The notes beneath the pieces are model-generated. The model was not told where the DNA came from. It searched no databases and saw only the letters and a program-made list of their open reading frames with translations. A stretch of DNA of 10,121 nt from Tannerella sp. (GTDB lineage Bacteria > Bacteroidota > Bacteroidia > Bacteroidales > Tannerellaceae): the NCBI GenBank assembly GCA_031259505.1, contig JAIRLL010000224.1, forward strand, positions 1-10,121. Direction: 5' to 3'. This document shows, piece after piece, positions 1,537 through 10,121 of the stretch. Made by a program: the position numbers and the translations under genes. The stretch's first letter is position 1, and every line of letters starts with the position of its first letter.

Positions 1537-3567
1537 ATGAGTGAAATCAAAGTAATGAATCGTGCGGCGGACAACATCAGAATACTGTCCGCTGCGATGG
1601 TCGAAAAAGCAAAGTCCGGCCATCCTGGAGGCGCTATGGGCGGCGCCGATTTTGTGAATGTGCTTTATGCCGGGTTTTTGAACTACAATCCGGAAAAACC
1701 GGACTATCCGTTCAGAGATCGCTTCTTTCTTGATCCGGGACACATGTCGCCGATGCTTTATTCTGTCCTGTCGCTTACGGGATTGATTCCGCTGGAAGAA
1801 TTAAAAAGTTTCCGTCAGTGGGGCAGCCTCACGCCCGGACATCCCGAAGTGGACTTCTCGCACGGCATCGAAAATACTTCCGGGCCGCTGGGACAGGGAC
1901 ATGCCATGGCGCTGGGCGCAGCTATCGCCGAGCGTTTTATGGCGGCGCGTTTCGGAGAATGGATGGCGCACAAGACGTATGCCTACATCTCGGACGGAGG
2001 CATACAGGAGGAAATTTCGCAGGGCGCAGGGCGCGTCGCAGGACATTTGGGTCTCAGCAACCTGATCATGTATTACGACTCGAACAACATCCAGCTATCC
2101 ACGAAGGTAGAAGAAGTAGATACCGAAGACGTGGCTGCGAAATACAGAGCCTGGAACTGGAATGTCATCAGCGTCAACGGCAGTTCGGCAGACGAGATAC
2201 GCAAGGCGCTGAATGCCGCCCTGACCGAAACGGAGCGTCCGACGCTGATTATCGGGCATACCGTCATGGGTAAAGGCGCGGTAGACGCTTCGGGCAATAA
2301 CTACGAAAACAAAGTATCTACCCACGGACAGCCGCTCTCGGCAGCAGGAGCCGATTTTGCAGCAACCGTCAGAAATCTGGGTGGCAACCCCGACGAGCCG
2401 TTTGTAATCTTCCCGGAAGTCAAAACGCTCTACAACAACCGCCGCGGCGAACTGCTGAACTGGTATCGGGAACGCATTGAGACGGAGAAAAAATGGCGTG
2501 CGACAAATCCCGCACTGTCCGCCAAATTAGACCTTTTCCTGAGCGGAGCCGCGCCCGAAATAGATTATTCGGCCATCGCCATGAAAGAAAATGTGGCCAC
2601 CCGCGCAGCTTCGGCTACGGTGCTCGGTACGTTCGCCGAAAAAATAGAAAACATGATCGTGGCATCGGCAGACCTGAGCAACTCGGATAAAACCGATGGC
2701 TTCCTGAAAAAGACAAAAGCCTTCACGAAAGGCGATTTCAGCGGACAGTTCCTGCAAATGGGCGTGTGCGAACTGACCATGGCGTGCGTCATGAACGGAA
2801 TGGCGCTGCATGGCGGCGTGATCCCTGCCTGCGGGACATTCTTCGTTTTTTCGGACTACATGAAGCCGGCCGCACGGTTGGCTGCCCTGATGCATCTGCA
2901 CGTGATTTACATCTGGACGCACGACTCGTTTCGCGTAGGCGAAGACGGGCCGACGCATCAGCCTGTTGAACATGAAGCGCAAATCCGTCTGCTCGAACAT
3001 CTGCACAATCACAGGGGCGAACGTTCCATGACAGTGTTGCGTCCGGCCGACGGCGCGGAAACAATCGCAGCATGGAAAATGGCTGTCGAAAGTAAACGCC
3101 CCGTCGCCCTGATTCTCTCTCGACAGAACATAACCGATTTGCCCTCGACTTCGGGCAACCGTCTGGCCGACGCGATGCAGTTGTTCAAGGGGGCGTATGT
3201 TATCTCGGACTGCAACGGCGCGCCTGATGCGGTCTTGCTTGCAAGCGGTTCGGAAGTGGCGACGCTTGTCGAAGGCGCGGCGCTGCTCGACAGGGAAGGA
3301 ATCAGGACGCGAATTGTATCCGTACCTTCCGAAGGACTGTTTCGCGACCAGTCCGAAGAATACCGGCAACAGGTGTTGCCTCCGGGCATTGTCCGTTACG
3401 GTCTGACGTCGGGGTTGCCCGTCACGCTGGCCACGCTGGTCGGCGATAATGGATATATCCACGGAATGACGCATTTCGGCTATTCGGCTCCATACAAGGT
3501 GTTGGACAAAACGTTTGGCTTCACAGGAGAAAACGTGTACGGGCAGGTGAAGAAACTTGTTAAATGA
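1537..3567 (+). CDS. tkt: Transketolase
   Basis: This 676-residue single chain has the standard transketolase length and domain order. It contains the N-terminal thiamine-diphosphate (pyrophosphate-binding) domain at about 1-330, the pyrimidine-binding domain at about 350-530, and the C-terminal domain at about 550-676. It transfers two-carbon ketol units between sugar phosphates in the cytoplasmic non-oxidative pentose-phosphate pathway. Visible motifs are SGHPGG (27-32, active-site His29), GPLGQG (116-121), SDGGIQEE (152-159) followed by DSNN (181-184) for metal and diphosphate binding, STHG (261-264), GVCELTM (409-415) with the presumed cofactor-activating Glu412, and GEDGPTHQP (468-476). 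The diphosphate motif starts with Ser instead of the usual Gly (SDG for GDG), and GVCELTM replaces the common GVRE-type sequence; I believe both occur in other Bacteroidetes enzymes. The ATG at 1537 gives the expected N-terminus. It is the first gene of a cluster, four bases before rpiB. Confidence 0.96.
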   Translation: MSEIKVMNRAADNIRILSAAMVEKAKSGHPGGAMGGADFVNVLYAGFLNYNPEKPDYPFRDRFFLDPGHMSPMLYSVLSLTGLIPLEELKSFRQWGSLTPGHPEVDFSHGIENTSGPLGQGHAMALGAAIAERFMAARFGEWMAHKTYAYISDGGIQEEISQGAGRVAGHLGLSNLIMYYDSNNIQLSTKVEEVDTEDVAAKYRAWNWNVISVNGSSADEIRKALNAALTETERPTLIIGHTVMGKGAVDASGNNYENKVSTHGQPLSAAGADFAATVRNLGGNPDEPFVIFPEVKTLYNNRRGELLNWYRERIETEKKWRATNPALSAKLDLFLSGAAPEIDYSAIAMKENVATRAASATVLGTFAEKIENMIVASADLSNSDKTDGFLKKTKAFTKGDFSGQFLQMGVCELTMACVMNGMALHGGVIPACGTFFVFSDYMKPAARLAALMHLHVIYIWTHDSFRVGEDGPTHQPVEHEAQIRLLEHLHNHRGERSMTVLRPADGAETIAAWKMAVESKRPVALILSRQNITDLPSTSGNRLADAMQLFKGAYVISDCNGAPDAVLLASGSEVATLVEGAALLDREGIRTRIVSVPSEGLFRDQSEEYRQQVLPPGIVRYGLTSGLPVTLATLVGDNGYIHGMTHFGYSAPYKVLDKTFGFTGENVYGQVKKLVK

Positions 3568-3571
3568 CCGG

Positions 3572-4009
3572 ATGCGAATCATTGGTTTTGCCGGCGATCA
3601 TGCCGGTTTTGAACTTAAGGAAATTACCCGGAAATACGTTGAATCGCTTGGGTATTTGAGTAAGGATTTCGGTGCGTATTCGGCCGAGAGTTCCGATTAT
3701 CCGGACTATGCCCATCCGCTTGCCTCGGCCGTCGAGTCGGGGCAAGTGGAGTTGGGGATGGCGTTCTGCGGGACGGGAAACGGCATCAGCATCACACTGA
3801 ACAAGCACCGGACGATTCGCTCCGCCATCTGCTGGCTACCGGAGATTGCCCGGCTGGCGCGCGCTCACAACGACGCCAATATTCTTGTCCTGCCTGCGCG
3901 ATTCATCACGCCCGACGAAATGAAAGCGATTGTCAACGTCTTTTTGAACACAGCTTTTGAAGGCGGACGACATCTGCGGCGCGTGGAAAAGATTTCGGCC
4001 AACATATAA
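3572..4009 (+). CDS. rpiB: Ribose-5-phosphate isomerase B
   Basis: The 145-residue product belongs to the RpiB/LacA/LacB family and interconverts ribose 5-phosphate and ribulose 5-phosphate. Motifs are the start MRIIGFAGDHAGFELK (1-16), DYPDYA (42-47), the catalytic FCGTGNG (65-71) with Cys66, the NKHRTIR segment, and RAHNDANILVLPAR (97-110) with His99. Cys66 and His99 fall at the same numbers as the known catalytic residues of the E. coli enzyme. I chose the ATG at 3572, four bases after the tkt stop. The frame is open back to a TTG at 3557, but that would add five residues absent from the family and overlap tkt. The spacing implies co-transcription with tkt: the two enzymes act in adjacent steps of the pentose-phosphate pathway and together supply ribose for nucleotides. 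LacAB-type galactose-6-phosphate isomerase is less likely given this context. Confidence 0.95.
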   Translation: MRIIGFAGDHAGFELKEITRKYVESLGYLSKDFGAYSAESSDYPDYAHPLASAVESGQVELGMAFCGTGNGISITLNKHRTIRSAICWLPEIARLARAHNDANILVLPARFITPDEMKAIVNVFLNTAFEGGRHLRRVEKISANI

Positions 4010-4030
4010 TTAATATATATCCTTAGAAAC

Positions 4031-6160
4031 TTGGAAACATCTTTATTTTATACTCTGATATCGAATAGGCTGTCCATCCCGGCCGGTCAGGTCGAACGAA
4101 CTGTGGGCCTGCTGGACGGAGGAGCGACCATTCCGTTCATCAGCCGCTACCGGAAAGAGATGACGGGAGGGCTGGACGAGGTGCAAATCGGCGACATAAA
4201 AGATTATTACGAAAAACTTCGCGAGTTGGCGAAGAGAAAGAATACTATCCTCGCCGCCATCGAAGAACAGGGCAAGTTGACCTCCGAACTGAAACAGCGC
4301 ATCGACGATTCGTGGGATGGCGCCGAACTGGAAGATCTCTACATGCCATACAAGCCCAAACGGACAACCCGCGCGGAAATCGCCCGTAAAAAAGGTCTGG
4401 AACCGCTGGCGCAAATCATCATGAAACAGAACGAACGGGACCTGACCCTGCGTGTGAAGACGTTTGTTACCGGCGAAGTGAAAGACGCGGGCGAAGCCTT
4501 GCAGGGCGCCCGCGACATTATCGCCGAATGGGTGAACGAAGACGAGGACGCCCGCCGGATGGTGCGCAATTCCTTTGCACGCACGGCCGTCATCACGTCG
4601 AAAGTAGTGAAAGGCAAGGATGAAGAAGGCGACAAGTATCGCGATTACTTTGATTTCAGCGAACCGTTGAACCGCTGTTCGTCGCACCGGCTGCTGGCGT
4701 TGCGCAGGGGAGAGAGCGAAGGTATTTTGCGTGTAAGCATCTCGCCCGATACGGAAGAATGCGTCGAACGGTTGCATCGCCGCTTTGTGAAAGAGCGAAA
4801 CGAATCGTCCGAACACGTGACCGAAGCGGTCGGCGATGCTTTCAAACGTCTGCTCAAACCATCTATCGAAACGGAGTTTGCCAACCTCGGCAAAACCCGC
4901 GCCGACGGGGAAGCGATTCGCGTCTTTGCCGAAAACCTGCGTCAGTTGCTGCTGGCGCCGCCGCTGGGTCAACGCCGCGTGCTGGCCATCGACCCCGGCT
5001 ATCGCACCGGCTGCAAACTGGTCTGCCTCGATGCACAGGGGAACCTGCTGCACAACGAAACGATATATCCGCATCCGCCGCGCAGCGAAGCGGGAAAGGC
5101 TGCCGCCAAAGTATCTCATCTGGTTTCGAGCTACGCCATCGAAGCCATCGCCGTGGGAAACGGAACGGCAAGCCGCGAAACGGAACAGTTTATTACCGGC
5201 ATACGGTTCGACCGCAAAATAAATGTCTTCTCCGTCAGCGAAAACGGCGCGTCGGTCTATTCGGCGTCGAAGGTTGCCCGCGAGGAATTTCCCGAATACG
5301 ACGTCACCGTGCGCGGGGCTGTCAGCATCGGCCGCCGCCTGATAGACCCGCTGGCCGAACTGGTGAAAATAGACCCGAAAAGCATCGGCGTCGGACAGTA
5401 TCAGCACGACGTTGACCAGATGCTGCTGAAAAAAAGTCTCGACCAGACGGTAGAAAACTGCGTGAACCTTGTAGGTGTCAATGTGAACACTGCCGGCAAA
5501 CATTTGTTGACGTATGTATCGGGACTTGGCCCTGCGCTGGCGCAAAACATTGTCGACTACCGTGCGGAACACGGGGCTTTCAAAAATCGCAAAGACCTGC
5601 TGCACGTTCCCCGGATGGGAGCGAAGGCTTTCGAACAGTGTGCAGGGTTCCTCCGCATCGAAGGAGGCGACAACCCGCTCGACAATTCGGCCGTTCATCC
5701 CGAAAGCTATCCGGTAGTGCAAAGCATGGCGTGCGATCTCAACTGTACCGTCATGGCGCTGATTGTCGACAGGGATTTGAAAAAGAAACTGAATCTCGAA
5801 CTCTATACTTCAGCTACGGTCGGGATGCCCACGCTGCTCGACATCATGGCCGAACTGGACAAACCGGGTCGCGACCCGCGACAGTCAATACAGGTGTTTG
5901 CCTTCGACCCGTCGATAAAAACCATCGAAGACCTGCGCGAAGGACAGGTGTTGCCGGGCATCGTGACGAACATCACCAATTTCGGATGCTTTGTCGACAT
6001 CGGCATCAAGGAAAACGGGCTTGTGCATATTTCGGAAATGGCTGACCGTTTTGTTTCCGACCCGACGCAGATTGTTTCGGTTCATCAGCACGTGACGGTA
6101 AAAGTGTTGAGCGCCGATGTTGCCCGCAAGCGCGTACAACTGTCCATGAAAGGACTTTAG
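4031..6160 (+). CDS. tex: Tex-family transcription accessory / RNA-binding protein
   Basis: The 709-residue protein has the full architecture of Tex. The N-terminal helical domain (about 1-190) contains GATIPFISRYRKE (31-43) and GLDE. The YqgF/RNase-H-like fold (about 315-445) contains LAIDPGYRTGCKL (318-330) and VGNGTASRETE (375-385). The signature RRLIDPLAELVKIDPKS (435-451) leads into helix-hairpin-helix repeats (about 490-620, e.g. SGLGPALAQNIVDYR). An S1 RNA-binding domain (about 637-706) contains GIVTNITNFGCFVDIG and GLVHISEM. Tex is a cytoplasmic nucleic-acid-binding protein linked to transcription and RNA metabolism; its exact activity is debated. The start is TTG at 4031: an in-frame stop lies at 4007-4009 and the first in-frame ATG would delete the conserved RYRKE region. 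It begins 21 bases after rpiB with no terminator between, so it is probably the third gene of the tkt operon. Confidence 0.94.
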   Translation: METSLFYTLISNRLSIPAGQVERTVGLLDGGATIPFISRYRKEMTGGLDEVQIGDIKDYYEKLRELAKRKNTILAAIEEQGKLTSELKQRIDDSWDGAELEDLYMPYKPKRTTRAEIARKKGLEPLAQIIMKQNERDLTLRVKTFVTGEVKDAGEALQGARDIIAEWVNEDEDARRMVRNSFARTAVITSKVVKGKDEEGDKYRDYFDFSEPLNRCSSHRLLALRRGESEGILRVSISPDTEECVERLHRRFVKERNESSEHVTEAVGDAFKRLLKPSIETEFANLGKTRADGEAIRVFAENLRQLLLAPPLGQRRVLAIDPGYRTGCKLVCLDAQGNLLHNETIYPHPPRSEAGKAAAKVSHLVSSYAIEAIAVGNGTASRETEQFITGIRFDRKINVFSVSENGASVYSASKVAREEFPEYDVTVRGAVSIGRRLIDPLAELVKIDPKSIGVGQYQHDVDQMLLKKSLDQTVENCVNLVGVNVNTAGKHLLTYVSGLGPALAQNIVDYRAEHGAFKNRKDLLHVPRMGAKAFEQCAGFLRIEGGDNPLDNSAVHPESYPVVQSMACDLNCTVMALIVDRDLKKKLNLELYTSATVGMPTLLDIMAELDKPGRDPRQSIQVFAFDPSIKTIEDLREGQVLPGIVTNITNFGCFVDIGIKENGLVHISEMADRFVSDPTQIVSVHQHVTVKVLSADVARKRVQLSMKGL

Positions 6161-6178
6161 CCCGGACTGGGGGCATGA

Positions 6179-6199
6179 TTGCGTGTTACGCAACGTATT
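6179..6199 (+). terminator. Weak hairpin after tex, possible terminator
   Basis: TTGCGT (6179-6184) and ACGCAA (6188-6193) form a 6-bp stem with a GTT loop, followed by CGTATTTT. It lies 18 bases past the tex stop. The T-tract is short and displaced, so termination is plausible but not strong. The same arm takes part in a longer-range inverted repeat with 6279-6287. Confidence 0.3.
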
Positions 6200-6287
6200 T
6201 TCCCCGCCACACTGTGAGGGAAAAAACACGCGCGGTGCATACGGTTTGGGGAGAAAAATTACCCGGTTTGTCCGATTATGCGTAACA
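6184..6287. repeat. 9-bp inverted repeat in the convergent tex/GH78 spacer
   Basis: TGTTACGCA at 6184-6192 is exactly complementary to TGCGTAACA at 6279-6287. The enclosed segment holds a further hairpin, TTTTCCC (6198-6204) with GGGAAAA (6218-6224) and an inner CAC/GTG pair. That hairpin has its T-rich side on the left and A-rich side on the right, the wrong order for an intrinsic terminator in either direction. The whole spacer (6161-6357) contains no gene; mutual exclusion of folds could shape 3' ends of the two convergent transcripts. Confidence 0.3.
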
Positions 6288-6357
6288 TGAATTATTTGAA
6301 GATTCAGGAATTAATCAGACGCAGTCCGGGCAATATTTCCTTCGGTTATGTTCACGG

Positions 6358-8124
6358 CTACCGGACGATTTTCACACCCCTGGGGGCTTTCACGCTGGAG
6401 ATAATTCTGCCCGAGGCGTCTTTCCTGTGACTGATTTTCACCACTCCGTGCGGTGTCGGGAAGGTGCCTTCCACCCACTGGAGGTCGCCCAGATGCGGTT
6501 CGATGCGAAGCGTCCGGCATCCGGGGTCTACCACCTGCACGCCCAGTACGTGTTCGGTCAGCCAGGGCGCGGGTCCCGATGCCCATCCGTGACACAGACT
6601 GTGTCGCAACTGTTTGTAACAATACGCGCCGAAGTCAGCATGAATGTCTTTTTTCCCTTCCGGGACAAGTTCGTCAATCCCCGCAGCGTTTTCCATCCAC
6701 TCCAGATTGAAATCTTCCCAGAAGGTGGTGGCTCCCATGTCAAGCATTCCACCCCAGAATTGCCGGATGTTGTCGATGGCAGCCTGATAGTCGCCTGCCC
6801 TGGCCTGTGCCTGCAGCATGTAGTATCCGTAGAAGGTGGAAAAGTCTTTCGCGCCGCCGTCGGCAATCACTTCGTCGATGGCCTGCCGTGCCGGTAACAT
6901 GCCTGCGAGCGCCAGCAGCGATGCGGCCTGTTTCAGTTGGTTGTGGTGCGGGACATACTGCTGCATGAGAGCAGCGACGTCGGTACATTCGGTCGCCAGT
7001 TGTCTGTCGCCGAGTATGCCGCACAGTTCGGCGCCTGCCTGAAAGGCTATCACCATCAGCGCCTGCAGTCCGGCATCGACGCCTTGCGTGTTCGGACTCG
7101 AAGGCCAGTCGAGGAAACGCCCGCCGCCGTCCAGCCGTTCTTTTCCCGATGCGTCGACTTTTGTAAACAGCAGCCGCAGCAGTTCGGCGAGGTATTCCTG
7201 CTGATTTTTCAGGTATGCCAGGTCGCCCTGATAGCGATACCAGTCGCGATGGATGATGATCCACCACAGGGAATAGGAACACATGCCGTTCATCCAGCCG
7301 GGGAGGGGAGTGATGTCGCGCGCCAGGTCGAGGCTTTTGGGAACGACTTCGTTGTATCCGAAGACAGCGCTTATCGTCATCACTTCCGGGTGCAGGTCGC
7401 CCAGCCACACCAGCCGGTCGCGTTTGATGCCGTCCCAGATGTATTCCTGCATGTTGAGATGCACGGTGTAGGCGGCGGTCATCCATATCCGGTTCAGCCG
7501 CTCGTCGCTGCTTTTAAATGAGCCGTGATAAGGGATGTCGCGATAGGAGAATATGGCGTTGACTTCTTTCAGGTCGAGCCTTACGTTGGGTTCTATCAGG
7601 TCGATGCGTACAAAGCGGAAGCCGCTGTTGCCCGTTTCGGCCACTCCGAGCCAGGGTAATTCCATGACGAAGTCGCGCATGGCATGGTCGTTGGTTGCAC
7701 CCTGCGCTCCGCCCGCCTGGCTCATGGCCTCGCTGACCGATTCGCCGAAGCGTATGCGTACTTTTGCGGGAGTGCTCGATGCGGCGGTTACCAGTTGTAT
7801 GCCGCCCTGTATCTCTTTACCGAAGTCGAGCAGGATGGACGGATATTCGTTGTCCGTACTGCGCATGGAACATGACGGGCGATCGGTCAGTTCGCTCTGT
7901 CCGTTGTTTCCGCCCGCAAGCAGCGCGTCGGGACGGGAAATCAGTTTTCCTCCACCATCGTATTTCCATACAATGCGCTGAGGGGTAATGTACGACCGCA
8001 CGCGGGAATCCTGAAATGTCCTGCTTGCGTATTCCGATCCGAATACTGGAGGGAGACGGTGTTCCTGGGCGTGCACTGCGCCTGCAAGGATAACCGATAC
8101 GAGAAATAATGATAAAAGTTTCAT
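6358..8124 (-). CDS. Secreted GH78-type alpha-L-rhamnosidase
   Basis: The 588-residue product begins with a Sec signal peptide (MKLLSLFLVSVILAGAVHA, cleavage after residue 19 at AVHA|QE) and has no lipobox, so it is exported to the periplasm or beyond. A beta-sandwich region (about 90-200) precedes an (alpha/alpha)6 catalytic domain of the Bac_rhamnosid6H type (about 200-515). A C-terminal beta domain of the Bac_rhamnosid_C type follows (about 516-588: GPAPWLTEHVLGVQVVDPGC). The acidic cluster DGIKRDRLVWLGD (231-243) and GATTFWED (464-471, Glu470 probable general base) match active-site regions of inverting alpha-L-rhamnosidases, and SLCHGWASGPAPWL (509-522) is a further family signature. GH78 enzymes release terminal alpha-L-rhamnose from plant glycans, pectin or glycosides. 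At 588 residues it is shorter than many GH78 proteins, lacking extra N-terminal beta domains. It stands alone: no SusC/SusD-like genes are in the window. Substrate is inferred from family only. Confidence 0.82.
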   Translation of the reverse strand: MKLLSLFLVSVILAGAVHAQEHRLPPVFGSEYASRTFQDSRVRSYITPQRIVWKYDGGGKLISRPDALLAGGNNGQSELTDRPSCSMRSTDNEYPSILLDFGKEIQGGIQLVTAASSTPAKVRIRFGESVSEAMSQAGGAQGATNDHAMRDFVMELPWLGVAETGNSGFRFVRIDLIEPNVRLDLKEVNAIFSYRDIPYHGSFKSSDERLNRIWMTAAYTVHLNMQEYIWDGIKRDRLVWLGDLHPEVMTISAVFGYNEVVPKSLDLARDITPLPGWMNGMCSYSLWWIIIHRDWYRYQGDLAYLKNQQEYLAELLRLLFTKVDASGKERLDGGGRFLDWPSSPNTQGVDAGLQALMVIAFQAGAELCGILGDRQLATECTDVAALMQQYVPHHNQLKQAASLLALAGMLPARQAIDEVIADGGAKDFSTFYGYYMLQAQARAGDYQAAIDNIRQFWGGMLDMGATTFWEDFNLEWMENAAGIDELVPEGKKDIHADFGAYCYKQLRHSLCHGWASGPAPWLTEHVLGVQVVDPGCRTLRIEPHLGDLQWVEGTFPTPHGVVKISHRKDASGRIISSVKAPRGVKIVR

Positions 8125-8178
8125 GTCATTTAAGTCAAATTAAGAAATATTACAGCAATAAAAATATTTTTTCGCGGG

Positions 8179-8186
8179 CAAAATCA
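8179..8186 (-). promoter_or_regulatory. -7-like box (TGATTTTG) for the rhamnosidase gene
   Basis: Read on the minus strand this is TGATTTTG, differing from TAnnTTTG only at the second base. It lies 54 bases before the ATG at 8124. Its upstream edge overlaps the end of the 27-bp palindrome at 8185-8211, as expected for a regulated promoter. Confidence 0.35.
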
Positions 8187-8211
8187 CATGAAAATTTCGA
8201 ATTTTCATGTG
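8185..8211. promoter_or_regulatory. 27-bp palindrome, candidate operator upstream of the rhamnosidase
   Basis: Twelve-base arms CACATGAAAATT (8185-8196) and AATTTTCATGTG (8200-8211) are perfect complements around TCG. The site lies immediately upstream of, and overlaps by two bases, the -7-like box of the minus-strand gene, and thus covers its -33 region. Such a long symmetric element fits a dimeric repressor or activator site. It could also fold as a hairpin, but no T-tract directly follows on either strand. The G+C-poor arms make a terminator less likely. Confidence 0.45.
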
Positions 8212-8250
8212 CGTAAAAAAAATCAAGACCACCGGGTTCTGCTTACCACC

Positions 8251-8264
8251 GTACTTTGAAGTAC
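8251..8264. repeat. Short inverted repeat at the left flank of the IS110 remnant
   Basis: GTACTT (8251-8256) and AAGTAC (8259-8264) are perfect complements separated by TG. It sits 7 bases before the -7-like box TAACTTTG. It may belong to the left non-coding end of the IS110-type element, a region which in this family can encode the guide (bridge) RNA, or it may be a small operator. The exact element boundary cannot be placed by eye. Confidence 0.3.
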
Positions 8265-8270
8265 AATTGC

Positions 8271-8278
8271 TAACTTTG
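8271..8278 (+). promoter_or_regulatory. -7 box (TAACTTTG) before the IS110 remnant
   Basis: An exact TAnnTTTG match 42 bases before the ATG at 8320, oriented toward the transposase remnant. No TTTG is present at 19 bases upstream. It was probably the transposase promoter when the element was active. Confidence 0.35.
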
Positions 8279-8319
8279 CAGCAAAAAATAATCGTAAAAC
8301 AATTAAAAAACGTAAGTTT

Positions 8320-8642
8320 ATGTACACATACAGTAGTCTTGACGTGCCAAAGGTAGTGTTTTTACATGTATAATAGACGAAAAACGGGAAAAGATTTTTG
8401 AAAAGCGTTACGGGACACTCACCCCCGACTTGCAAGAACTTAGAGACACGCTACTTAAGTGTGGCGTAAAAGAAGTAGCGATGGAAAGCACAAGTATCTA
8501 CTGGATGCCGGTATGGCGAACTTTGCAACCTCATTTTTCGATGAAATTAGCCAATCCGTGTTTCATCAAACAGTTGCCGGGACGCAAGAGTGATGCAAAG
8601 GACGCACAGTGGATAGCAGAATGTTTGCAAAATGATCAATAA
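8320..8642 (+). pseudogene. IS110-family transposase, frameshifted and truncated
   Basis: This is the N-terminal, RuvC-like DEDD half of an IS110-family recombinase. The first frame (ATG 8320) reads MYTYSSLDVPK and hits stops at 8371. The next frame continues the family sequence with CIIDE, FEKRYGTLTPDLQEL, VAMESTSIYW and QLPGRKSDAKDAQWIAECLQ. A one- or two-base indel between about 8349 and 8366 therefore broke the gene. All four acidic residues are recognisable (Asp in SSLDV, Glu in MEST, two Asp in KSDAKD). The frame then ends at TAA 8640-8642, where family members continue for some 200 more residues, so the C-terminal transposase_20 (PF02371) domain with its catalytic serine is missing. 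The element is dead. It lies in the A+T-rich region between the rhamnosidase and tetR, and marks past mobile-element activity. Confidence 0.85.
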
Positions 8643-9001
8643 ACAGTATCGCGAATGAAAGTGCGTATAAGACCGGAAAGCTCGCAGAGGAAGTATTTTA
8701 TTTTTTATTTTTTTTGTCTGCCCGGCTATATTCTATCGTAAGCGCTGCATAAAAGGCGGCTATATATTGTTTTTGAAACTTAATAATGAGTTGCCTATCT
8801 TAACTTAACAACACCATAGAACGAAATGCTTTTCAGGGGAATGGAATTATATTATAGCTCCAAATTGAAACTGTAATTTATTGACAGTTCCTTATAGCAC
8901 AGCTACAATATAAGCAGACACTGATTCTTTTTTTCTGAAGATCCTTACGGCAGACGCTCCCCAAATTGCGCCGAAAAGAAAATAAAAAAAATCGAAGAAC
9001 G
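8643..9001. other. A+T-rich gene-free region between the IS110 remnant and tetR
   Basis: No coding frame with recognisable content is present. It contains a long T-rich run (about 8694-8715) and a 9-bp direct repeat CGGCTATAT at 8723-8731 and 8757-8765. Two hairpins are possible: AACTGT (8869-8874) with ACAGTT (8884-8889), and AATCG (8990-8994) with CGATT (9000-9004), the second adjoining the tetR -33 region. The left part may include decayed right-end sequence of the IS110 element, but no boundary repeat is evident. Confidence 0.5.
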
Positions 9002-9031
9002 ATTGCAGATTAAAAATAATTCGTACCTTTG
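9002..9031 (+). promoter_or_regulatory. tetR promoter, Bacteroidetes type
   Basis: ATTG (9002-9005) lies 18 bases upstream of TACCTTTG (9024-9031), an exact -7 consensus. The predicted start of transcription is near 9038, inside the palindrome at 9028-9055. The transcript would have a leader of about 40 bases before the ATG at 9079. Confidence 0.65.
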
Positions 9032-9055
9032 TTTCGACAATATTGTCGAAACAAA
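9028..9055. promoter_or_regulatory. 28-bp perfect palindrome, probable TetR operator
   Basis: The 14-base left arm TTTGTTTCGACAAT (9028-9041) is the exact reverse complement of the right arm ATTGTCGAAACAAA (9042-9055). It overlaps the -7 box at 9024-9031 and the presumed transcription start, a classic position for autorepression by TetR-family dimers. Its 12-bp centre GACAATATTGTC recurs at 9719-9730 after the gene. Confidence 0.75.
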
Positions 9056-9078
9056 ATTATGTAATTTGCAATAATAGG

Positions 9079-9699
9079 ATGATTGATAGAGAATTAACTA
9101 CCGAACAGATCGTTTTGAGAGCCGCCGAAGCGGAGTTTCTCGAAAAAGGCTACGGCAATACAAAAACCGTTGCTATTGCGCGGCGAGCAGGTATAAGCCA
9201 TTCCATGCTGCATTACTATTTTCGCAGCAAAGAGCAGTTGTTTCAAAAGATTTTCAAGGAAAAAGTGCATACTTTAACACAAATGTTCAGTGGTATATTT
9301 GAAAAAGACAGGCCGTTTACCGAAACTATACGGCTTGTTGTGGAAACGCAATTTAATTTTATAGCGCAAAACCCGCAGATGCCACAATTCATTATCAGCG
9401 AACTTTTATCAAACAGGGACAATCGCGATTGGGCTATCGAAACGCTGTTTCCACAGCTATATCCCATTTATTGCACATTAGAAAAAATGTTGAATGAGGA
9501 AATTGCGAAAGGGACTGTGCGCGCTGTTTCAATACGTAATTTGATACTCAACATTGTCTCAATTAATGTTTTCGGCTTTATTGCTTTACCTGTTTTTAAA
9601 GAAGCGTTTCAACTCAAAACAGGCGAGGCATTGGAAAGTTTTCTCAACGAAAGGCTGGAAAACAATGTGCAACTTATTTTAAATGCATTAAAGCCATAA
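9079..9699 (+). CDS. TetR/AcrR-family transcriptional regulator
   Basis: The 206-residue product has the size and layout of TetR-family repressors. An N-terminal helix-turn-helix (about 8-55) contains IVLRAAEAEFLEKGYGNTKT, then VAIARRAGISHSMLHYYF and the typical SKEQLFQKIF. An all-helical ligand and dimer domain (about 60-206) follows, too variable to name a ligand. The frame is open back to a TTG at 9043, but that codon lies inside the operator palindrome; the ATG at 9079 places the protein start where family members begin. Two sites sharing the core GACAATATTGTC flank the gene, so it probably represses itself and the next gene. Only 60 bases and no hairpin terminator separate it from the activase gene, so the two may also be co-transcribed. 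A ligand such as an acyl-CoA or fatty acid is a guess from the neighbour only. Confidence 0.92.
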   Translation: MIDRELTTEQIVLRAAEAEFLEKGYGNTKTVAIARRAGISHSMLHYYFRSKEQLFQKIFKEKVHTLTQMFSGIFEKDRPFTETIRLVVETQFNFIAQNPQMPQFIISELLSNRDNRDWAIETLFPQLYPIYCTLEKMLNEEIAKGTVRAVSIRNLILNIVSINVFGFIALPVFKEAFQLKTGEALESFLNERLENNVQLILNALKP

Positions 9700-9718
9700 T
9701 ATTTTTTTAGATGAAATA

Positions 9719-9730
9719 GACAATATTGTC
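9719..9730. promoter_or_regulatory. Second operator-like site before the activase gene
   Basis: GACAATATTGTC is a perfect 12-bp palindrome identical to the centre of the 28-bp operator at 9028-9055. The match extends to the right with GAA (9731-9733) but not to the left. It lies 29 bases before the ATG at 9760. A weak -7-like TAGTGTTG follows at 9737-9744. Shared sequence suggests binding by the same TetR protein, probably with lower affinity. Confidence 0.65.
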
Positions 9731-9759
9731 GAACAATAGTGTTGAATAAAAAATAAGCT

Positions 9760-10121
9760 ATGAAGGCGATAAATAAAATCGGCATTGATATTGGTTCCAC
9801 AACACTGAAAATTGTTGTATTGGACAATAAGAACAATGTAGTATATAAAAACTACGTGCGGCACAAAGCGGGTATCGGCGAGGTGTTTCTTGCCGAACTC
9901 GCGGAAATATCAGTGCGTTTTCCCGAAGCTGCTTTCAAAATCAACATGACAGGCTCGGCGGGAATGGGCATAGCGGAACGGACACGATGTACTTTTGTTC
10001 AGGAAGTTGTTGCAGAAATTGAAGTGATAGAAACACTATACCCCGACACGCGCACGCTCATCGATTTGGGCGGCGAAGATGCGAAAATCGTCTTTTTTGA
10101 GCAGGGGAAGCAACTCGATAT
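9760..10121 (+). CDS. Acyl-CoA dehydratase activase (BadF/BadG/BcrA/BcrD ATPase), 5' part
   Basis: Only the first 120 residues are inside the window. They show the ASKHA-type ATPase fold: phosphate-1 loop IGIDIGSTTLKIVVLD (7-22), MTGSAGMGIAE (63-73), FVQEVVAEIEVIE (79-91), and LIDLGGEDAKIVFF (100-113) as the second phosphate motif. Proteins of this family hydrolyse ATP and pass an electron from an iron-sulfur cluster to a 2-hydroxyacyl-CoA dehydratase or a benzoyl-CoA-reductase-like partner. The GGEDAK form (rather than GGQDxK) is, as I recall, that of the large fused activase-related proteins of about 1400 residues in anaerobes. In that case domains such as DUF2229 should follow outside the window. 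The cluster-binding cysteines lie beyond the window edge and cannot be checked. The ATG at 9760 gives a normal start. It is preceded by an operator-like site, so it is a likely TetR target. Confidence 0.88.
   Translation, partial: MKAINKIGIDIGSTTLKIVVLDNKNNVVYKNYVRHKAGIGEVFLAELAEISVRFPEAAFKINMTGSAGMGIAERTRCTFVQEVVAEIEVIETLYPDTRTLIDLGGEDAKIVFFEQGKQLD

Follow-up and report, generated by a model that had tools for sequence, protein, structure and literature searches.

The stretch of DNA analysed here, referred to as the window (10,121 nucleotides, Tannerella sp.), carries a tetR gene with a short palindrome at its promoter and the same palindrome again before the next gene, an acyl-CoA dehydratase activase gene. 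This arrangement raises the question of whether both sites are operators of the TetR encoded between them, and of how this regulator came to stand before an activase gene.

Paired repeats in the window

The palindrome at the tetR promoter (9028-9055) was perfect over 28 bp, with two arms of 14 nt each (9028-9041 and 9042-9055) that were 100% complementary with a spacer of 0 nt. A 15 nt sequence, GACAATATTGTCGAA, was present as exact copies at 9036-9050 and 9719-9733, and a third copy with 80% identity was found at 9732-9746. Scanning of the window with up to two mismatches produced three matches compared to 0.47 expected. Both the 28-bp palindrome and the repeat at 9719 had been described by a sequence-only reading of this DNA and were confirmed as exact by computation. 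The assembly that contains the window (G000) has 2,649,612 bases in 417 contigs and is 80.8% complete. The 12-mer GACAATATTGTC occurred in it at exactly two places, both in the window and both flanking tetR, and both sites were kept in relatives, which bears out the earlier view that the recurrence goes beyond chance. With one mismatch, 11 more places were found in the assembly compared to three for the control in which the pattern was read backwards, so that near-matches exceeded the reversed control. Inspection of eight of the 11 places showed that seven were inside long open frames and one (C8:4484) was outside. The latter, at G000:C8:4484-4495 (L006), is a weak lead for a further target.

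The tetR gene, the activase gene and the putative operators

The tetR gene (9079-9699, forward strand) encodes a TetR-family regulator of 206 aa that was placed in an efflux-linked clade by trees, and its start was supported by relatives. Its product has the N-terminal helix-turn-helix of the TetR type (TetR_N, PF00440; 1.1e-14, 54.4 bits, cut-off 24) and a TetR_C_29 domain (3.6e-6). The nearest solved structures by sequence included HlyIIR (2jj7, 1.6e-10; 2fx0, 1.8e-10) and a fatty acid metabolism regulator (3whb, 3.9e-8), the similarity to these being weak and no orthology being claimed. The activase gene (9760-10121, forward strand) is cut by the contig end. The remaining fragment of 120 aa matched the BcrAD/BadFG ATPase domain (PF01869, 8.9e-8) with 32.4 bits at a cut-off of 31.5, so that the product may activate a 2-hydroxyacyl-CoA dehydratase. 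The remainder of the gene was not found in its assembly.

The same tetR-activase pair was found in three other loci (L014, L015 and L016), all from draft metagenome assemblies, which together with the window are called window-type here. Their TetRs were 82, 74 and 70% identical to that of the window, and the activase fragment shared 85% identity with the first part of the L014 protein (989 aa), 82.5% with L015 and 72% with L016. The L014 activase has two BcrAD_BadFG stretches and DUF2229. A comparison of the intergenic regions in relatives had been proposed by the sequence-only reading, and here both sites were retained, with one before tetR and one in the tetR-activase gap in each of the three loci.

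A -7-like box of tetR (TACCTTTG) was identified at 9024-9031 on the forward strand, TAnnTTTG being the -7 type of Bacteroidota. Unit 1 of putative operator A (GACAATATTGTC, 9036-9047) begins 4 bp behind this box and is conserved in relatives, and a degenerate unit 2 (AACAAAATTATG, 9050-9061) follows at +14 compared to +13 in the aligned relatives. Putative operator B lies between tetR and the activase gene and consists of unit 1 (GACAATATTGTC, 9719-9730), an exact repeat of the first unit of operator A, and unit 2 (AACAATAGTGTT, 9732-9743) at +13, which corresponds to the third repeat copy. It starts after 19 nt past the tetR stop codon, and 16 nt separate the end of unit 2 from the activase ATG. 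No TAnnTTTG box was found in the tetR-activase gap ahead of operator B. Examination of the tetR promoters of the window and L014-L019 showed a distance of 3-4 bp from the end of the -7-like box to unit 1 in the window, L014, L015, L016 and L019 and of 7 bp in L018, with no such box before unit 1 in L017.

The conserved unit of the putative operators

Alignment of nine tetR promoters showed GACAA(A/T)(A/G)TTGT(C/T) at a short distance after a TAnnTTTG box in eight of the nine rows. An extra A behind unit 1 was present in the window only, and the window has a 28-bp palindrome because of this extra A and the TTTG of the -7 box. The longer palindrome was also sought in 35 loci with a non-canonical TetR, which were those with a best unit of at least 9/10 positions within approximately 200 bp out of 44 with enough sequence, some of these best units possibly being chance. 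It was present in one of the 35, the window itself, while in the other 34 the perfect palindrome at the chosen unit measured 0-16 bp. The 28-bp palindrome was therefore rejected as the conserved operator unit, as relatives do without it and its outer arms derive from the -7 box and a single inserted A.

In the same 35 loci, a second unit at +13 scored a mean of 7.43 of 10 and reached at least 8 in 18 loci. Other offsets from -20 to +30 reached this score in at most one of the 35 loci except for -13 (four) and +26 (six), which have the same period. In the window, operator B conforms to this period (9719 and 9732), whereas operator A has its second unit at +14. Judged by this conservation, the putative operator is a palindrome of 12 bp, RACAANNTTGTY, which frequently recurs at +13.

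The tandem pattern RACAANNTTGTYNRACAA matched the assembly exactly at 9719 only. With one mismatch, five rows were obtained, of which one was the place at 9719 on the opposite strand and the other four fell within coding frames or close to the start of a gene, and the total (2+4) equalled that of the reversed control (3+3). A genome-wide search for such palindromes, suggested by the sequence-only reading as a way to define a regulon, thus produced the two exact GACAATATTGTC sites at this locus, and a wider regulon in the genome of the window was unsupported by the tandem-pattern search of the assembly. One of the one-mismatch tandem sites, at G000:C238:13723-13740 (L056), is at the start of a frame that resembled a heavy-metal efflux transporter by eye and is a weak lead.

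Relatives of the TetR

A search of a contig collection with the TetR of the window produced 10 related loci, of which nine were named as Bacteroidota groups and one (L020) as actinobacterial. L020 (WRHK01000080.1), labelled Promicromonosporaceae, has a Bacteroidales-type tetR and promoter and is perhaps misbinned. For five of the 10 loci (L019-L023) the contig ends inside tetR, hiding the next gene, and near-identical copies may break the assemblies at these places. Searches for TetR homologues also covered three overlapping sets of genomes, from which best matches only were taken as loci: 100 related genomes, 123 from the family (E up to 1e-46) and 393 from the order (E up to 1e-48). Together with the contig-collection loci and the activase loci these searches produced 60 TetR loci, including one duplicate (L033, the same DNA as L022 over 561 bases compared; both were included in the operator-motif counts and only L022 in the palindrome and period counts). 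The tetR gene stood before a TolC-type outer-membrane efflux gene in 33 loci, before an activase gene in 17, at a contig edge in nine and before another gene in one. Of the TolC-linked calls, 32 were made by script and L024 by eye from its TolC-like start, and the label efflux refers to a TolC-type gene downstream only.

Most activase-linked TetRs belong to another type. Among 36 activase loci with a TetR-like ORF directly upstream, 23 had what is referred to here as the canonical TetR of other Bacteroidales, with the operator TAAACNNNNGTTTA that is often paired. A TetR tree was constructed with 51 rows after nine of the 60 loci were dropped (fragments and the duplicate). The TetRs of the window, L014, L015 and L016 were placed inside the TolC-linked clade near L017, L089, L090 and L024, and the other 12 activase-linked TetRs lay apart. 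The placement of the TolC-linked L017 among the four window-type TetRs was unresolved in this tree. A single clade of all 16 activase-linked TetRs was rejected (AU p 0.002). In a 73-row tree built by a quick method with L086 dropped, the activase-linked label needed three changes, and the starred branches forced two. The TetR of the window therefore grouped with TetRs that precede TolC-type genes but is followed by an activase gene, and it shared neither the grouping nor the TAAACNNNNGTTTA operator of the canonical activase-linked TetRs.

With a canonical TetR as query, only the TetR of the window and a paralogue on contig C351 were found in G000, and the genomes of L014-L017 returned only the TetRs of those loci themselves at 25-30% identity, all of these being draft assemblies. 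The paralogue (G000:C351:319-921, L002) is 39% identical to the TetR of the window, stands before a TolC-type gene and has GTTAACA...TGTTAAA-like repeats upstream. Going beyond the sequence-only view, the TetR of the window is of the efflux-linked type, standing where other TetRs usually stand. The recognition-helix region read SHSMLHYYF in 4/4 window-type TetRs, TNVAMVNYY in eight of 10 canonical TetRs shown and INLALLNYYF in both TetRs of a third type (L068 and L070).

Operator type and TetR type

The strict motif RACAANNTTGTY was found upstream of tetR in 4/4 window-type, 15/31 efflux-linked and 8/9 contig-end loci, and in 0/1 other-context, 0/9 canonical and 0/2 third-type loci. It was missing upstream in the remaining 16 of the 31 efflux-linked loci. 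The canonical motif TAAACNNNNGTTTA was found upstream in 7/9 canonical loci and in 0/47 other loci, and shuffles of the strict upstream motifs gave at most 0.18 loci per group. In the tetR-activase gap of the window-type loci, the strict motif was present in three of four and the relaxed motif ACANNNNTGT in all four; the corresponding shuffles, upstream and in the gap, gave 0.00 and 0.00 for the strict and 0.26 and 0.14 for the relaxed motif. The gap downstream of tetR in efflux-linked loci had the strict motif in 2/33 and the relaxed motif in 4/33 (shuffle 0.74), which indicates that a second operator is not a general feature of that lineage. Canonical loci had their own operator in the tetR-activase gap in 5/11 cases.

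Since the motifs were derived from the first loci, a held-out set matters here, and 39 new activase loci were used, 22 of them with a TetR upstream. Held-out TetRs of the canonical type, defined by at least 43% identity to a canonical seed with the line drawn after seeing the rows, had TAAACNNNNGTTTA upstream in 12/12 and in the gap in 5/12. Three loci (L114, L121 and L125) had their best match to a canonical seed at 28-33%, were without the canonical motif and grouped elsewhere with L115; counting them as canonical gives 12/15 upstream. Only L114 among the 10 non-canonical held-out loci had RACAANNTTGTY. A third-type motif, GATTAAAA-N6-TTTTAATC, derived from L068 and L070, was found in 0/4 third-type-like held-out loci (L111, L120, L126 and L128). 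Overall, the operator sequence goes with the TetR type rather than with the target gene.

Relatives of the activase and a probable exchange of the regulator

Activase matches were found in 37 of 100 relatives (E up to 0.001, including the genome of the window, fragments and weak matches), and in 85/393 genomes of the order and 34/123 of the family (E up to 1e-150). A total of 69 activase loci were fetched, 30 from the relatives and 39 new ones from the order and family searches. The 36 with a TetR-like ORF directly upstream comprised the 23 of the canonical type and 13 others, and in 33 no upstream TetR was seen, in some because the contig ends. The other TetR types directly before orthologous activases were those of L068, L070, L086, L111, L114, L115, L120, L121, L125, L126, L128, L130 and L131, and some of these loci have tandem GACA....TGTC-like or GATTAAAA...TTTTAATC palindromes (identified partly by eye). 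The activase frame is approximately 1,400 aa in most loci fetched and is in pieces in the relatives of the window. In L014 (6671-10862) it consists of two adjacent ORFs. The activase genes of L015 and L016 appear interrupted, the former (6663-8718) being apparently incomplete and the latter (1594-6812) having two activase pieces parted by ATPase-like and nitroreductase-like ORFs that were named by eye.

In the activase tree, L014, L015 and L016 formed one group (SH-aLRT 100) beside L062, which has a canonical TetR, and L068 and L070 with third-type TetRs (98). The enclosing group of 13 rows had five canonical, two third-type and three TetR-less loci in addition to L014, L015 and L016. The 120-aa activase of the window was absent from this tree and is therefore placed by identity only. 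The activases of L014-L016 are thus close relatives of those under other TetR types, while their TetRs are not. Because these activase genes nest among those under canonical and third-type TetRs, a joint replacement of the repressor and its two operators appears to have taken place with the layout kept.

The tetR-tolC gap of L017 aligned with the tetR-activase gaps of the window, L014, L015 and L016 through the operator and was unlike them after it, which is consistent with a join immediately past operator B, irrespective of which gene moved. Movement of the activase gene to a position downstream of a resident efflux-type tetR and its operators, instead of tetR entering an activase locus, is compatible with the exchange, would bring both operators at once and finds the needed tetR-operator-tolC arrangement in L017. 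However, of 17 loci checked, several of them short contigs, only L015 shared transketolase and rpiB with the window, and we hold this origin to be possible at slightly under an even chance. The transketolase and rpiB genes are upstream of tetR-activase at 1537-4009 in the window and at 2183-4752 in L015 and were absent from the other 16 loci checked.

Proposed regulation and alternative explanations

The explanation that we consider probable is that both sites are operators of the TetR encoded between them, and that a TetR of the efflux lineage was exchanged in together with its two operators while the layout was kept. At operator A, the TetR would bind just behind the -7 box and over the start region, the usual place for autorepression, and would shut off its own transcription. 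At operator B it may block an internal promoter, possibly a weak one in the T-rich stretch, or act as a roadblock to read-through from tetR. A putative ligand would lower DNA binding and release tetR and the activase gene together. Each operator would consist of tandem 12-bp palindromes of the RACAANNTTGTY type at a 13-bp period, presumably with one dimer per palindrome. In an ancestor of the window and L014-L016, an efflux-lineage TetR would have ended up upstream of the activase gene together with its two operators, at the position that the canonical TetR with its operators occupies in other Bacteroidales. What is observed comprises the sites and their conservation, the agreement between operator type and TetR type, and the discordance of the two trees; from these we infer binding, repression, release by ligand and a single exchange. 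Autoregulation by the TetR and control of the activase gene by the same protein, as put forward by the sequence-only reading, receive comparative support from the conservation of the sites and from the operator-TetR match, with the difference that the predicted unit is the 12-bp and not the 28-bp palindrome.

A chance recurrence of an AT-rich palindrome would be in line with the AT-rich region and with the one-mismatch versions (11 vs three), but two exact copies in 2.65 Mb that both flank one gene and are both kept in relatives leave this explanation with practically no weight. Short AT-rich palindromes can serve many proteins, and another regulator than the TetR between the sites might bind them; this would be very improbable given that operator type follows TetR type over the 60 TetR loci and the held-out loci and that the exact 12-mer is nowhere else in the assembly. 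A further alternative is that operator A works and operator B is a relic of the ancestral tetR-tolC gap with no control of the activase gene, for which the alignment of the L017 gap with that of the window through the operator and the lack of a TAnnTTTG box in the tetR-activase gap can be cited. However, operator B is present in 4/4 window-type loci despite the 70-82% identity of the other three TetRs to that of the window, its 12-bp core in the window is the same as the core of operator A, and 5/11 canonical loci (5/12 in the held-out set) contain the canonical operator in the same gap, and this alternative is accordingly regarded as unlikely.

Comparison with known systems

Paired palindromic TetR operators are known from autoregulation of the TetR/tetA type, in which the regulator acts at its own promoter and at that of a neighbouring target, according to PMC3511530. 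As in that system, the window has a TetR-family gene with palindromic, here putative, operators for its own and a target promoter. Unlike the TetR/tetA arrangement given there, with two operators in one divergent intergenic region, tetR and its target in the window have the same direction with an operator before each, 683 bp apart, and the operators have 12-bp units at a 13-bp period. The canonical Bacteroidales tetR-activase loci (L059, L060, L064, L134 and others) have an orthologous activase in the same order and an operator before tetR, often also in the tetR-activase gap, but their TetRs are 28-34% identical to that of the window and their operator is TAAACNNNNGTTTA. The TolC-linked loci have TetRs of the same clade (L017 65%, L089 54%, L090 52% and L024 47% identical) and the same kind of operator, but a TolC-type outer-membrane efflux gene follows and a gap operator is rare (2/33 with the strict motif). 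No literature on a TetR of this activase was found among the matches listed in open-licence PMC.

Displacement of regulators with new motifs is also known, as the rhamnose genes have at least seven non-orthologous regulator types (PMC3870299). The L-rhamnose regulons described there resemble the present case in that one target set is under non-orthologous regulators with different DNA motifs by lineage, and differ in that the regulators exchanged here belong to a single family and the paired arrangement flanking their gene was retained. Since there is precedent for paired TetR operators as well as for regulator displacement, the joint exchange of a regulator with its paired operators is the part worth following.

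For the Bacteroidales, we lean towards the view that this activase gene repeatedly swaps both its TetR and the operators, among at least two and, judged by the 73-row tree, perhaps at least three unrelated TetR types, that the lineage of the window re-created the paired layout with a new code, and that an efflux-type repressor gates the activator of an anaerobic CoA enzyme. The locus would be a natural example of a joint change of regulator and operators at a single gene with the circuit layout preserved. It provides two predicted operator codes for Bacteroidales TetR groups, RACAANNTTGTY at a 13-bp period and TAAACNNNNGTTTA, and the two TetR types should answer the same ligand if the target enzyme dictates the signal.
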